A DNA stretch of 64,000 nucleotides, from the NCBI RefSeq assembly GCF_002082015.1, contig NZ_CP015109.1, positions 2,385,001 to 2,449,000 of the forward strand, written 5' to 3'. The notes under the pieces are model-generated. The model did no database searches, was not told the DNA's origin, and saw only the letters and a list, made by a program, of their open reading frames with translations. The DNA is from Sporosarcina ureae (GTDB taxonomy: Bacteria > Bacillota > Bacilli > Bacillales_A > Planococcaceae). The translations under genes and the position numbers were made by a program. Positions 3,632 to 43,881 of the stretch are shown here, one piece after another. How positions within the stretch are numbered: position 1 is the first letter of the stretch; every line of letters starts with the position of its first letter.

Positions 3632-3933
3632 TATGAGCGGCTACGGGGTTTTATAGAGCGGCTAGGGTGGAAGTATGAGCGGTTGCGCGGTTCGATAGAG
3701 CGGCTGGGTTGGAAGTATGAGCGGTTACGGGGTTTGATAGAGCGGTTGGGGTGGAAGTATGAGCGGCTACGCGGCTTGATAGAGCGGCTGTCGTGGAAAT
3801 ATGAGCGGCCACGCGGCTTGATAGAGCGGTTGGGGTGGAAGTATGAGCGGTCACCCGGCCCAATAGAGCGGCAAGCATGAAACTATGAGCGGCCACACAG
3901 CCCAATAGAGCGCTCAAGCCATTTCATTGAGCG
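3632..3933 (-). repeat. 21-bp phased repeat array 1 (15 core copies)
   Basis: Fills the gap between the convergent genes moaB and moaC. On the minus strand the cores read CGCTCTAT and CGCTCATA in alternation, with a final CGCTCAAT. Cores start at 3632, 3653, 3674, 3695, 3716, 3737, 3758, 3779, 3800, 3821, 3842, 3863, 3884, 3905 and 3926: fourteen consecutive steps of exactly 21 bp. The 13-bp intervals are also partly conserved (TAGGGTGGAAG type and TACGGGGTTTG type), giving a 42-bp compound unit. Because 21 is a multiple of three, repeat-encoded open frames with 7-residue periodicity appear on both strands; they lack ribosome sites and I do not regard them as genes. Confidence 0.95.
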
Positions 3934-3960
3934 CCAACCCAACCCAACCCAACCCAACCA
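3934..3960. repeat. CCAAC pentanucleotide tract
   Basis: Five to six tandem copies of CCAAC lie between the last core of array 1 and the moaC terminator. A similar C-rich, CCCA/CCAAC-biased stretch of about 50 bp follows the last core of array 3 (24,911 onward). No gene is encoded here. Confidence 0.85.
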
Positions 3961-14161: not shown

Positions 14162-14249
14162 GGCATTGGTGAGCAGTAGGGCTTGATCTGCATGACGACA
14201 TTGCCTTCCCCTTACGATCATCTAGTATCGTTTTCTTTAGGGGGAGAAA

Positions 14250-14382
14250 CGCTCATACTTTCATCTACGCGCTCATACTTCCACGACATCCGCTCATACA
14301 TCTCTAATAGTCGCTCTATGATCGCACTAGAGCGCTCTATCAGCCCGTTTAACCGCTCTATGAAATGAGTCAAGCGCTCTAA
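14250..14382 (+). repeat. 21-bp phased repeat array 2 (7 core copies)
   Basis: Cores at 14250, 14270, 14291, 14312, 14333, 14354 and 14375: three CGCTCATA, three CGCTCTAT and one CGCTCTAA. One step is 20 bp, the other five are 21 bp. It is the shortest array of the family and the only one not between convergent genes; it lies between the SEC-C/TPR gene and the lysine-degradation operon, both on the plus strand. The rest of the 14,108-14,520 gap holds the terminator and about 130 bp of promoter-region sequence without further recognisable structure. Confidence 0.9.
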
Positions 14383-24303: not shown

Positions 24304-24324
24304 ATCAATTGAAAAGCAAAGCTT

Positions 24325-24361
24325 GAGCGCTCACATTTATTGGTGGGTGCTCATTTATTTT
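24325..24361 (+). terminator. Probable terminator of the beta-propeller gene
   Basis: GAGCGCTCAC pairs with GTGGGTGCTC (two G-U pairs) across ATTTATTG, followed by ATTTATTTT. Its left arm contains the GCGCTCA core of the array that starts 8 bp later. Confidence 0.6.
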
Positions 24362-24368
24362 GCCTGAG

Positions 24369-24911
24369 CGCTCTATGGCGGTCGCAATGCGCTCAATGAA
24401 GCTGGTCGAGCGCGGTCACGTTCGGATTCGCTCAATAAAGTGGCCCAAGCGCTCTATCCCAGTCGGGTTCCGCTCAATCAAGCCAGCCAAACGCTCTATA
24501 GCCGTCGCTACCCGCTCAATCCATCTTCGCGAGCGCTCTATGTGTTGTCTAAAACACTGTATCAACCCGCGCCATCTCATCTCGCTCAATGAACTAACTT
24601 AAACGCTCTATGGGTCACGCTGTCCGCTCTATATAACGCCACAAGCGCTCTATCTCAGTCGAATTCCGCTCAATCAAGCCAGCCGAACGCTCTATAACCA
24701 TCGCTATCCGCTCAATCGCACCCGCTGTCCGTCCAATGAAGCAAGTCGATGGGCCAACCGCGGTCACGTTCGAATCCGCTCAATAAAGTGGCCCAAGCGC
24801 TCTGTCCCAGTCGAGATCCGCTCAATCAAGCAAGCCAAACGCTCTATAGCCATCGCAATCCGCTCAATCAGCCCAGCCAATCGCTCAATCGCACCCGCTA
24901 TACGCTCAATC
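24369..24911 (+). repeat. 21-bp phased repeat array 3 (26 core copies, internally duplicated)
   Basis: Largest array, between the convergent beta-propeller and EAL genes. Cores (CGCTCTAT, CGCTCAAT and degenerate forms such as CGCGGTCA, CACTGTAT, CGTCCAAT, CGCTCTGT) start at 24369, 24390, 24411, 24429, 24450, 24471, 24492, 24513, 24534, 24555, 24583, 24604, 24625, 24646, 24667, 24688, 24709, 24730, 24759, 24777, 24798, 24819, 24840, 24861, 24882 and 24903. Twenty-one of 25 steps are exactly 21 bp; exceptions are 18, 28, 29 and 18. A block of about 110 bp starting at 24411 recurs at 24759 with the same 18-bp step, and part recurs at 24646, showing segmental duplication. A C-rich stretch follows to about 24,960; 24,960-25,044 shows nothing else. 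Confidence 0.95.
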
Positions 24912-41219: not shown

Positions 41220-41323
41220 TTGTCCAGTTCTGCATCAAAGTGTTTCTCTTAGCCTCTAGCAACAGACTACCAAGTTAGGGTATAATGAAAAACAGATACT
41301 TAGTGCAAAGGAGAAGGTTGAGT

Positions 41324-41920
41324 GTGAATGAACAAGCATTATCGGTAAGAGAGGCCATCGTCACACGGCGCTCTATCAAGAATTTTAACGGACAACCGAT
41401 CGAACCAGAGATCATTCCCGAAATTATAGAAGATGCCGTTTGGGCGCCAAACCACGGAAACCGTAATCCTTGGCGATTGATCGTAGCAACAGGCGAACAG
41501 TATGAAGAGCTTTTGGACGTCTTAAAGGAGTTCGGTGTAGCTAATTGGAAACAGCTTTCTGACGAGGATCTCGAAAAACAAATGAAGAAGTTCTCGACTG
41601 CCAGTGCAGCTGTTTTCGTCATCGTCCCTGAAGATGTACGCCAAAAAGAGCGGCTAGAAGATTACGCAGCAGCCAGCATACTGATTCAGAATATCCAATT
41701 GCTTGCTTGGGATAAAGGGGTGGGGACTTGCTGGAAAACACCGCCATTCATCGACAACCCAAAATTCCGCGAGCGTCTAGGCATAGAGGCAGGCGAGCGC
41801 ATCATCAGCATGTTGCAATTCGGCTATTTCGACACATCACCAAAAGCTCCACCGCGTAAGCCAGTAGAGGAAATCATCACGTACTTTGGCAGTAGCGAGG
41901 ACGAAGAAGAGGAAGCTTAA
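41324..41920 (+). CDS. Nitroreductase-family protein
   Basis: 198 residues from GTG at 41324, about 10 bp after AAAGGAG. FMN-dependent NAD(P)H oxidoreductase fold: TRRSIKNFNGQPI near the N-terminus, WAPNHGNRNPWRLIV, a central helix and GVGTCWKTPPF. Reduces nitro compounds or quinones; physiological substrate unknown. Its terminator is followed directly by array 4. Confidence 0.88.
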   Translation: MNEQALSVREAIVTRRSIKNFNGQPIEPEIIPEIIEDAVWAPNHGNRNPWRLIVATGEQYEELLDVLKEFGVANWKQLSDEDLEKQMKKFSTASAAVFVIVPEDVRQKERLEDYAAASILIQNIQLLAWDKGVGTCWKTPPFIDNPKFRERLGIEAGERIISMLQFGYFDTSPKAPPRKPVEEIITYFGSSEDEEEEA

Positions 41921-41957: not shown

Positions 41958-41997
41958 AAAAAACAGGCTACCCCCTTTGTGGAGTAGCCTGTTTTTT
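41958..41997 (+). terminator. Intrinsic terminator of the nitroreductase gene
   Basis: AAAAAACAGGCTAC and GTAGCCTGTTTTTT are exact complements around a 12-nt loop. Confidence 0.93.
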
Positions 41998-42039
41998 GTA
42001 TGTGTGAAGAGGGAGGAGTGCTCGTAATTTGTCGCGAGG

Positions 42040-42488
42040 AGCTCTATTGGGCGTCGCGAGCGCTCAATGTAACCCCGCGTAAGCTCTATTCGGCTGTGTA
42101 AGCGCTCAATGTAATTCCGCATGCGCTCTATTCGACCACGTAAGCGCTCAATGTAATTCCGCATGCGCTCTATTCGGCCACGTAAGCGCTCAAAGCAATG
42201 CCGCAAGTGCTCTATCAGTCCACGCAAACGCTCAAAGCAATCTCGCGAGCGCTCTATTCAGCCGCGTAAGCGCTCAATGCAACGCCGCATGCGCTCTATC
42301 AGGCCATTCAAGCACTCAATACAATCCCGCATGCGCTCTATTCAGCCACACAAACGCTCAATGTAATCCCACGATCGCTCTATACAGCCACACAAGCGCT
42401 CAAAGCAAACCCGCGACCGCTCTATAAGTCCACACAACCGCTCTACCCAGCACCACAACCGCTCAACACACCCACAAAACCGCTCATA
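42040..42488 (+). repeat. 21-bp phased repeat array 4 (22 core copies, perfect spacing)
   Basis: Between the convergent nitroreductase and M20 peptidase genes. Cores start every 21 bp without exception from 42040 to 42481: 22 copies in 21 equal steps. They alternate CGCTCTAT-type and CGCTCAAT-type over most of the array (variants AGCTCTAT, CGCTCAAA, TGCTCTAT, CACTCAAT, CGCTCTAC, CGCTCAAC, CGCTCATA). The 13-bp intervals are also half-conserved (GTAATTCCGCATG and TCGGCCACGTAAG types). Only 11 bp separate the array from the M20 stop codon, and I see no hairpin terminator for that gene. Confidence 0.96.
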
Positions 42489-42498
42489 AATTCACCAA

Positions 42499-43881
42499 TC
42501 ACAATCCAAGTTTTTCAATCTCTCCATAATAACTACTGATGACACGCAGTCCTTTATCGAAATTCTCCAAGTGGAAGTGTTCATTCGGTGCGTGGAAGTT
42601 TTCTGTATCCAGTCCGAAGCCCATCAAGACGACTGGGATGTTCAGGATTTCATCGAACGCAGCAACGATTGGTATGGAGCCACCACCTCGTGTGTAGACG
42701 GTAGGTACGCCATATACTTGTTCGTATGCTCTGCCTGCTGCTTGAATCACTTCGTGGTCGTATGGCGTTAGGTAAGGTTTCCCTTTATCAAACTCCGTCA
42801 CCGTTACTTCACAGCCGACCGGTTCGTGTTTCGCAATGTGCGCGCGTAGTTTTCCGACGATTTCATCCGGTTCTTGATCAGGGACTAGTCGGCACGTGAT
42901 TTTCGCGCCTGCTTCGGAAGGGAGGACGGTCTTGATGCCTTCTCCTGAAAATCCACCGAATACGCCGTTGATCTCGAGTGTTGGACGAGCCCATGTGCGT
43001 TCTGTATACGTATAACCTGGTTCGCCAGTAAGTTCTTTGACGCCGACTTCTTTTTTCACTGCTTCCTTATCGAAATCAAGAGCTGCCCAACCTGCGCGCT
43101 CTTCTTCAGTAAGATCACGAACTTGATCGTAGAATCCATCGATTGCGATAGTTCCTTCGGCATCACGGAATGAAGCGAGAATTTCGACAAGTGCGTGGAT
43201 CGGGTTTTGTACGCCGCCACCGTATAGTCCGGAATGCAAGTCGCCTTTGGGACCTTTCACATCGATTTGTACGCCAGCTAATCCGCGCAGTCCGTAGCAA
43301 ATGGCCGGCTGTCCAGGCCCGTACATGCCTGTATCAGAAATGACGATGAAGTCCGCTGCTAGCTTGTCTTGATTATTTCGGATATATTCCTCTAGGCTCG
43401 GGCTGCCAATTTCCTCTTCCCCTTCAATAATAAGCTTGACGTTAACAGGGAGTTTGCCTTCGACATTCATGAGAGCCTCGATCGCTTTACTGTGCATAAA
43501 CACTTGCCCTTTATCATCGCTTGCTCCGCGTGCATATAATTTATTATCACGGATTGTTGCTTCAAATGGAGGTGTTTCCCATAAGTGAAGCGGATCAACG
43601 GGTTGCACATCGTAGTGGCCGTAGATCAGGATGGTTGGTTGACCTTCAGCATGCAACCAGTCTGCATACACAACGGATTGTCCAGCCGTTTTTTCAATTG
43701 ACACGTTCTCCAAGCCGATATTTTCGAATTCATTCGACAGCCATTCCGCTGCTTTTTGCATATCCGGTTGATGTTCCGAAAGTGCGCTGATGCTTGGAAT
43801 TGCCAGGAAGTTCGTTAATTCTTCCAAGTGGCGGTCACGGTTGTTTGTGAAATATTGGTCCAATGATTGTGATGAAGTCAT
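42499..43881 (-). CDS. M20-family metallodipeptidase
   Basis: 460 residues. Zinc-dependent peptidase of the M20 CNDP-like group. Metal ligands and catalytic residues are visible: His and Asp in YGHYDVQP (near residue 88), Asp in GASDDKG, the Glu pair in IEGEEEIGS, Asp in VISDTGM and the C-terminal His in NFHAPNEHF. A dimerisation lid domain (about 190-340) is inserted. Cleaves dipeptides or N-acyl amino acids in the cytoplasm. Good ribosome site (AAAGAGGG). Monocistronic. Confidence 0.92.
   Translation of the reverse strand: MTSSQSLDQYFTNNRDRHLEELTNFLAIPSISALSEHQPDMQKAAEWLSNEFENIGLENVSIEKTAGQSVVYADWLHAEGQPTILIYGHYDVQPVDPLHLWETPPFEATIRDNKLYARGASDDKGQVFMHSKAIEALMNVEGKLPVNVKLIIEGEEEIGSPSLEEYIRNNQDKLAADFIVISDTGMYGPGQPAICYGLRGLAGVQIDVKGPKGDLHSGLYGGGVQNPIHALVEILASFRDAEGTIAIDGFYDQVRDLTEEERAGWAALDFDKEAVKKEVGVKELTGEPGYTYTERTWARPTLEINGVFGGFSGEGIKTVLPSEAGAKITCRLVPDQEPDEIVGKLRAHIAKHEPVGCEVTVTEFDKGKPYLTPYDHEVIQAAGRAYEQVYGVPTVYTRGGGSIPIVAAFDEILNIPVVLMGFGLDTENFHAPNEHFHLENFDKGLRVISSYYGEIEKLGL

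Follow-up and report, generated by a model that had tools for sequence, protein, structure and literature searches.

Direct-repeat arrays with a step of two helical turns and species-specific cores, found toward the ends of transcription units in Sporosarcina ureae and its relatives

Introduction

Intergenic interspersed repeats are known as a class. REP elements are short, extragenic, palindromic and present in many copies, and REP/BIME sequences bind gyrase, IHF or Pol I. The Sal-box/TTF-I arrays behind eukaryotic rDNA and the RTP/Tus fork traps are directional protein arrays that lie behind rRNA genes or act as polar blocks. In the accessible part of their description, the TAACTGA direct repeats of Beggiatoaceae are located mostly just upstream of start codons and use one heptamer across phyla (PMC4679880). 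The nearest described kind that we found is the STAR element of Staphylococcus, which the main text of its report presents as intergenic direct repeats with one 14-bp consensus, cores at least 40 bp apart and different loci in each species (PMC3532100).

The locus considered here lies in the window, a 64,000-nucleotide stretch of Sporosarcina ureae DNA that spans positions 2385001-2449000 of a 3,412,428-bp single-contig genome. At 42037-42498 of this window, 22 repeat units are arranged on the minus strand. This array and its relatives combine a two-turn phase with species-specific cores at operon ends and form a variant of the STAR/REP class of intergenic repeats.

With STAR, as described in the main text of its report, these arrays share a conserved short core, spacers that differ between loci and are alike within a locus, variable copy number, species-dependent abundance and a function without assignment (PMC3532100). 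They differ from that description in their 20-21 bp step, in cores that vary between species and in sites that, where compared, are kept between species; the words convergent, terminator, orientation and helical are absent from the same main text (PMC3532100). The arrays are intergenic direct repeats with locus-specific spacers, but they have neither the STAR core nor its spacing of at least 40 bp, and the 14-bp STAR core TDTGTTGKGGCCCM, with up to three mismatches, gives 16 matches in the window versus 24.5 expected by chance and none in 42037-42498. The likeness to REP/BIME elements lies in short, extragenic, multicopy sequences at 3′ ends and between convergent genes. However, REPs are palindromic, whereas the array tested here has no palindromic foldable unit, which argues against membership. 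The TAACTGA repeats, in the accessible part of their description, are likewise genome-wide intergenic sets with a short core and are proposed regulator binding sites, but the arrays here are mostly at 3′ ends and their core changes between species (PMC4679880). Sal-box/TTF-I arrays and RTP/Tus traps offer a functional analogy alone, as the present arrays also lie behind ordinary genes and are known from DNA sequence only. They are not CRISPR arrays of near-identical repeats with unique spacers, because only a core of 8-12 bp is kept and spacers are alike within an array. We found no report of such arrays in the open-licence full-text literature, which was searched partly with narrow wording and leaves most subscription journals outside; the main text of a comparative genomics study of coccoid Sporosarcina uses ‘repeat’ once, in another sense, and the word ‘intergenic’ not at all (PMC5930826).

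Results

A 22-unit array between a peptidase gene and a terminator

When the array is laid out in rows of 21 bases from position 42037, the core falls in one column of 22 successive rows, the last of which starts at 42478. The preliminary description, which had listed 22 cores separated by 21 steps of exactly 21 bp, is thus borne out. Each unit consists of WWWGAGCG and a spacer on the minus strand, and the last core ends near 42488. On the plus strand, the strict core CGCTC[AT]A is matched 17 times and GCTC[AT]A 20 times, with the two rows that escape the latter pattern being CACTCAAT at 42310 and CGCTCATA at 42478. The compound unit of 42 bp that had also been proposed is real, as CTCTAT alternates with CTCAAT or CTCAAA across the first 19 rows, and Tandem Repeats Finder reports periods of 21, 42, 84 and 126 over the array.

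On one side of the array lies a nitroreductase-family gene on the plus strand (41285-41920 as the longest ORF, start perhaps 41318; PF00881, 8.6e-30), followed by an intrinsic terminator at 41958-41997 that was predicted on the minus strand and then in both orientations, and that should be usable from both sides. Read-through of the nitroreductase terminator would copy the array as CGCTC RNA. On the other side, an M20-family (dipeptidase-like) peptidase gene occupies 42499-43881 on the minus strand (PF01546, PF07687). About 11 bp separate its stop codon from the last core, and the array is therefore in the peptidase 3′ end with GAGCG on the sense strand.

The array had been regarded as apparently non-coding, and we agree, because stops are not avoided in the single mostly open frame (55 of 482 units of this repeat family carry one in that frame, versus 60.8 ± 6.8 expected). 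This lack of stop avoidance, together with frame-shifting steps of 20 and 41 bp, rules out a coding heptad peptide, and annotators should be warned that short ORFs with 7-residue repeats here can stem from non-coding arrays. RNA structure beyond that of shuffled sequences was absent from both strands of this array (z -0.24 and -1.08), inverted repeats were not found inside it, and an Rfam search of the window returned one tRNA and nothing more at Rfam thresholds. The shuffle scores and the Rfam result lead us to reject an RNA structure at this array.

Three more arrays of the same family are present in the window. One, on the plus strand at 3632-3946, is flanked by convergent molybdopterin-binding-domain and MoaC genes; a second, on the minus strand at 14237-14382, separates co-directional genes; the third, on the minus strand at 24315-24910, has 24 units in four blocks between convergent genes, and its orthologous place also holds an array in two relatives (G029 and G071). 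The named relatives that share a neighboring protein belong to Sporosarcina, and strains P2 and P34, with 97% protein identity, come closest.

Core, spacer and phase across the genome

This genome contains 512 matches to a triple of GAGCG cores spaced 21 bp apart (226 forward, 286 reverse), and the same pattern read backwards, which served as control, yields 0 forward and 0 reverse matches. This genome-wide pattern is far beyond chance. At least one match is present in 23 of 36 other genomes of the genus, with more than 100 in seven; in other families, three of 24 genomes have one to five matches each. The backwards control is non-zero in some relatives (20 in G014, 18 in G036 and 16 in G032).

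At least 43 arrays were gathered from about 1.3 Mb of this genome. Their minus-strand unit logo reads WWW-GAGCG-S-W-T-R followed by about nine free bases. At the array at 1792400, GAGCGCTC equals its own reverse complement, and the logo, the composition and the terminator count for the 43 arrays take the opposite strand there. Between units one or two steps apart, with lattice units that have broken cores counted, identity is 0.84 in the core and 0.39 in the spacer, such that a core of 8-12 bp is conserved and the spacer is nearly random. Spacers are more alike within one array than between arrays, and one core is common to arrays with different spacers. The largest of the 43 arrays (L204:12409-13851, genome position 2521409) has about 70 units and adjoins a YwpF-like gene; its blocks recur at about 144 bp among the matches listed. 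Elsewhere in this genome, at about 2.825 Mb (L173:9997-10793), two group I introns (RF00028) are located near each other.

The spacing of the cores is constrained, as the preliminary description had held. Among 486 core-to-core distances of 11-31 bp in the 43 arrays, 442 are 21 bp despite 39% spacer identity, 31 are 20 or 22 bp and 13 are other values (eleven at 18, two elsewhere), and when longer distances are added, 488 of 564 are exact multiples of 21. The stronger proposal that spacing is under more constraint than sequence finds no support, since the core itself is strongly kept and freedom is limited to the spacer. Nor is the absence of indels from the array at 42037-42498 special: with about 91% of steps at 21 bp, 21 clean steps in succession have a chance of about 0.14.

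Ordinary non-coding DNA nearby, compared with two relatives, has 49 indels per 570 substitutions (0.086) and 58 per 722 (0.080), or about one indel for every 12 substitutions. About seven visible spacer differences per unit pair would then predict about 0.6 indels per step, whereas 0.09 to 0.13 are observed; the expectation is rough, because duplication gives units a common ancestry and BLAST alignments end at large gaps. By this rough measure, departures from phase are several times less frequent than expected from local indel rates.

An AT/GC sub-period of 10-11 bp is evident in the 43 arrays of this genome (0.097 versus 0.003, sd 0.023, for a column-permuted null), in 24 arrays of Sporosarcina loci (0.148 versus 0.003, sd 0.029) and in 33 arrays of other genera (0.072 versus 0.008, sd 0.024; P 0.005). 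The significant test permutes blocks of all columns; when the core is held fixed and spacer columns of the own-genome mean profile are permuted, the result is not significant (P 0.39).

Turnover of units at the peptidase locus

An array is present at the peptidase locus in nine further genomes (G018, G001, G066, G029, G079, G071, G023, G012 and G068). In all nine it starts just behind the peptidase stop codon with GAGCG on the peptidase strand, and a terminator follows it in the eight genomes for which the far end is displayed. One genome (G080) has two units at this locus, and no GAGCG array was found there in G072, G070 or G027.

The ten genomes have between 3 and about 42 units each, with rewritten spacers. 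The preliminary description had proposed to check whether copy number in sister strains varies by whole units and never by other lengths. Whole-unit change is indeed the rule, as 141 of 146 single steps are 21 bp when only cores after two A/T are counted, but ‘never’ does not hold, since four steps are 20 bp and one is 22 bp. A plain count of GAGCG steps in the nine relatives gives 96 of 21 bp, two of 20, three of 22, one of 30, two of 41 and one of 62, which adds two 22-bp steps and one 30-bp step to the A/T-filtered count; in G071 and G068, many steps appear as 6+15 or 5+16 because the unit contains a second GAGCG. As in VNTRs or minisatellites, copy number thus changes by whole units between related genomes, with few off-phase steps, and we propose that duplication and loss of whole units are responsible. 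One-base shifts occur elsewhere and can spread: at the peptidase locus in L051, 21-bp and 20-bp steps are mixed in a 41-bp repeat.

More distant relatives have other cores at the same place, for example CTTTGGACG in G004 and G077. In G032 the same place holds a 41-bp repeat composed of 21 + 20 bp, and some other distant relatives are without an array. Over about 43 kb of synteny, G029 and G071 carry arrays at both of the sites that the compared stretches cover, with the strand unchanged, and further arrays were not found in that synteny of these two genomes.

Different cores in related genera

A scan of lags 8-63 over 80 peptidase loci of the bacterial family (1.56 Mb) places 51 of 67 periodic rows at 20-22 or 40-42 bp. 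A scan limited to lags 20-22 and 40-43, which is uninformative as to which lags are common, marks 60 stretches, three of them inside ORFs. By reading, the consensus units contain roughly two dozen cores, although chance may explain rows built on four or five units. These cores include CTATGAGCGC in P13, CTTTGGACG in S. koreensis and S. luteola, both AACGAGCGGGTTC and TGATCATAAA in the S. aquimarina group, GAACGCCA in S. cyprini, CTATCC in Lysinibacillus, TTATTGTCGCAAC in Paenisporosarcina, AAGTCCG in Bhargavaea, GGAAAGTATTT in Planococcus and the series TTTATTGGACA, TTTATCGGACA and TTTACCGGACA at three Ureibacillus loci. Two genomes from two other genera of the family, G105 and G120, carry their own cores behind rRNA operons. 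G120 has two such dialects, one based on GGGCG (16 triple matches, control 0) and the other on CTGATAGA (27 pair matches with up to two mismatches, control 1).

Several of these loci have features of their own. The TGATCATAAA arrays of the S. aquimarina group have a 20-bp step (L117:4382-4711, L119:4282-4711, L121:4290-4737 and L133:81-292), and crude ORF calls place three of the four in a divergent context, with no left neighbor assigned at L133. In Bhargavaea cecembensis B-C2, a stretch of about 1 kb (L138:7510-8545) has a 40-bp period and roughly 51 units of 20 bp. The last 1500 bases of the reverse complement of a locus from another family (L272; genome G113, family f14) show a weak GAGC repetition with a step of 20-21 bp after an rRNA terminator, and phased arrays may therefore reach beyond this family. 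At the other loci of that other-family set no pattern was accepted, and several were too short to score.

Position relative to transcription and replication

Gene neighborhoods were assigned with a simple hexamer caller written for this analysis. Of the 26 arrays from the pattern list that lie outside the window and the even stretches of the genome and have both neighbors called, 14 are convergent, 11 tandem and one divergent, compared with 73 convergent gaps among the 511 that measure 60 bp or more in the even stretches. The even stretches alone, which comprise 1.0 Mb without the window and eight array-bearing gene gaps, have arrays in 3 of 73 convergent versus 5 of 438 other gaps, a difference that is not significant (P 0.09). 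Addition of the window, which is not a random choice, gives 6 of 80 versus 6 of 476 (P 0.003). At the 80 family loci, 36 of 54 arrays lie between convergent ORFs versus 271 of 1099 gaps. A divergent context is seen for only two of the 38 arrays of this genome with both neighbors called.

An intrinsic terminator points at the array from within 250 bp in 33 of 43 cases; in two the terminator only points away, and in eight none was found. By a slightly different criterion, gaps of at least 150 bp that lack arrays have a terminator for the gene ending there in 21 of 40 convergent and 64 of 172 tandem cases.

Periodic arrays (20-22 or 41-42 bp, z >3) also follow 5S rRNA and its terminator in 18 of 23 operons from five genomes of three genera, namely G000, the genome studied here (4/4), G071 (4/4), G029 (2/3), G105 (6/6) and G120 (2/6), with three more G120 operons having 21 as the best lag below z 3. 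Since the rRNA flanks of one genome are homogenised related copies, each genome amounts more to a single observation than to four. In the genome studied here, all four terminator-ended operons read CGCTC in the read-through direction. Arrays were not found behind terminator-ended rRNA operons in G005 (0/4) and G083 (0/4), two of seven such genomes, or behind rRNA operons that run into tRNA genes (0/26); for G086, two of six operons were examined, both of the tRNA kind. One G029 rRNA operon (L245) has the usual terminator and no array, and is a natural empty site. Overall, the arrays tend to occur where transcription units end, in many cases past a terminator or between terminators, and rRNA operons are included in this tendency.

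GC skew and gene strand place the origin near 1.93 Mb and the terminus near 0.19 Mb. Among the matches listed, a first polarity figure was 33 of 43, but the matches listed above 1.79 Mb come from a single strand; a less biased subset places GAGCG on the lagging strand for 23 of its 33 arrays (P 0.035). In the even stretches and the window the count is 10 of 14 (P 0.18). GAGCG-plus versus GAGCG-minus pairs number 100 versus 14 below 1.79 Mb and 101 versus 306 above, under the assumption, which we infer, that the matches listed are the 100 with the lowest positions; pairs that belong to one array do not count as independent. Strand polarity is a bias, not a rule. A Chi site, which is AGCGG in B. 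subtilis, is an unlikely identity for these repeats, because G follows GAGCG in only about half of the units and GAGCG tends to the lagging strand.

Discussion

We consider it quite possible, if short of probable, that each array is a row of candidate binding sites for a sequence-specific and lineage-specific DNA-binding factor, with both the factor and its function being putative. A conserved core every two helical turns, joined by free spacers, means that the cores face one side of the DNA. Recognition in trans is suggested by a core that is shared among arrays whose spacers differ, and the two-turn step in many dialects suggests that duplex DNA is read from one side. The placement at transcription-unit ends speaks for insulation, back-up of termination or control of supercoiling. 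In the few sites that were compared, place and strand stay while sequence and length turn over.

Under such a model, copies of the factor would load side by side on one face of the DNA, and the loaded factor could form a stiff or wrapped nucleoprotein tract that insulates neighboring transcription units, either by stopping polymerases that move past the terminator, by containing supercoiling, or both. The arrays may in this way insulate or mark the ends of transcription units. Their preferred orientation would mirror the usual direction from which polymerase or replisome arrives, and the core would drift together with the specificity of the factor to generate the dialects. Which of insulation, back-up termination and supercoil control applies, and which protein is responsible, we infer rather than observe. 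A bacterial factor with specificity that changes so fast would be unusual, and the candidate protein is still hypothetical. Furthermore, the two dialects in G120 need two factors or one lax factor, and spots beyond terminators or between convergent genes are also those that best tolerate neutral repeats.

This last point leads to a reading of the arrays as neutral or selfish satellites, which seems rather unlikely to us. Slippage would multiply units that survive where they do the least harm, and phase and core would persist because young units are copied whole. Whole-unit changes in copy number, the tolerant locations and higher-order repeats (84 bp in the array at 42037-42498, with similar blocks among the matches listed elsewhere) are what one would expect from this process. 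It is more difficult to explain why units that are 61% different in the spacer still keep core and phase, why arrays of one genome with different spacers share one core, why 51 of 67 periodic rows lie at 20-22 or 40-42 bp with different cores, and why two sites are retained across species.

We regard as unlikely that the arrays are topological sites, where phased wrapping by gyrase or a comparable protein would relax positive supercoils ahead of strong or converging transcription, as has been proposed for the BIME/REP elements of E. coli. Convergent ends and rRNA operon flanks are where positive supercoils accumulate, and the 10-11 bp AT/GC sub-period and the units of about two helical turns across different dialects are consistent with wrapping. 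However, gyrase is conserved and only loosely sequence-selective, whereas here five or more core bases are conserved throughout the genome yet differ between relatives.

Rho-dependent back-up termination, with C-rich CGCTC read-through RNA serving as a rut site, is suggested by the composition of the CGCTC strand in this genome (0.311 C, 0.205 G), and this strand is copied by read-through of all four terminator-ended rRNA operons. The C-rich, G-poor character is not shared by relatives, in which C exceeds G on the sense strand of only 5 of 14 tandem-context arrays and the G120 read-through RNA carries GGGCG, and Rho has no need for a fixed core or phase. A Rho utilisation site is therefore highly improbable as the general cause. 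We give still less credence to an RNA element in the 3′ UTR that acts through stability, protein binding or structure: although the array is flanked by the peptidase stop codon and the terminator, it lacks both structure beyond shuffles and inverted repeats, and at 12 tandem arrays and the four rRNA operons neither neighbor is transcribed with GAGCG in the sense strand, versus four tandem arrays at which GAGCG is in the sense strand. Recognition sites of a restriction-modification or BREX-type methylase with strain-variable specificity would account for a short asymmetric core that varies between species, but are hardly credible given that the main text on six coccoid Sporosarcina strains, perhaps not including the strain of the window, lists no GAGCG motif in their methylomes (PMC5930826).

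To return to binding sites for a lineage-specific factor, a broader form of this proposal, which we hold to be doubtful but conceivable, is that the family, and perhaps its neighbors, has a dedicated system for marking transcription-unit ends, in which phased arrays are read by a fast-evolving factor with a species-specific site. Such a system would be a bacterial counterpart of eukaryotic rDNA terminator arrays and would provide polar insulators between transcription and replication. If this is true, the family keeps an operon-end system with fixed geometry whose recognition word differs between sister species, like a co-evolving protein-DNA pair. The arrays would then form a natural series in which to follow the evolution of DNA-binding specificity, and would raise the directly testable question of how these bacteria stop transcription behind rRNA operons and between convergent genes.
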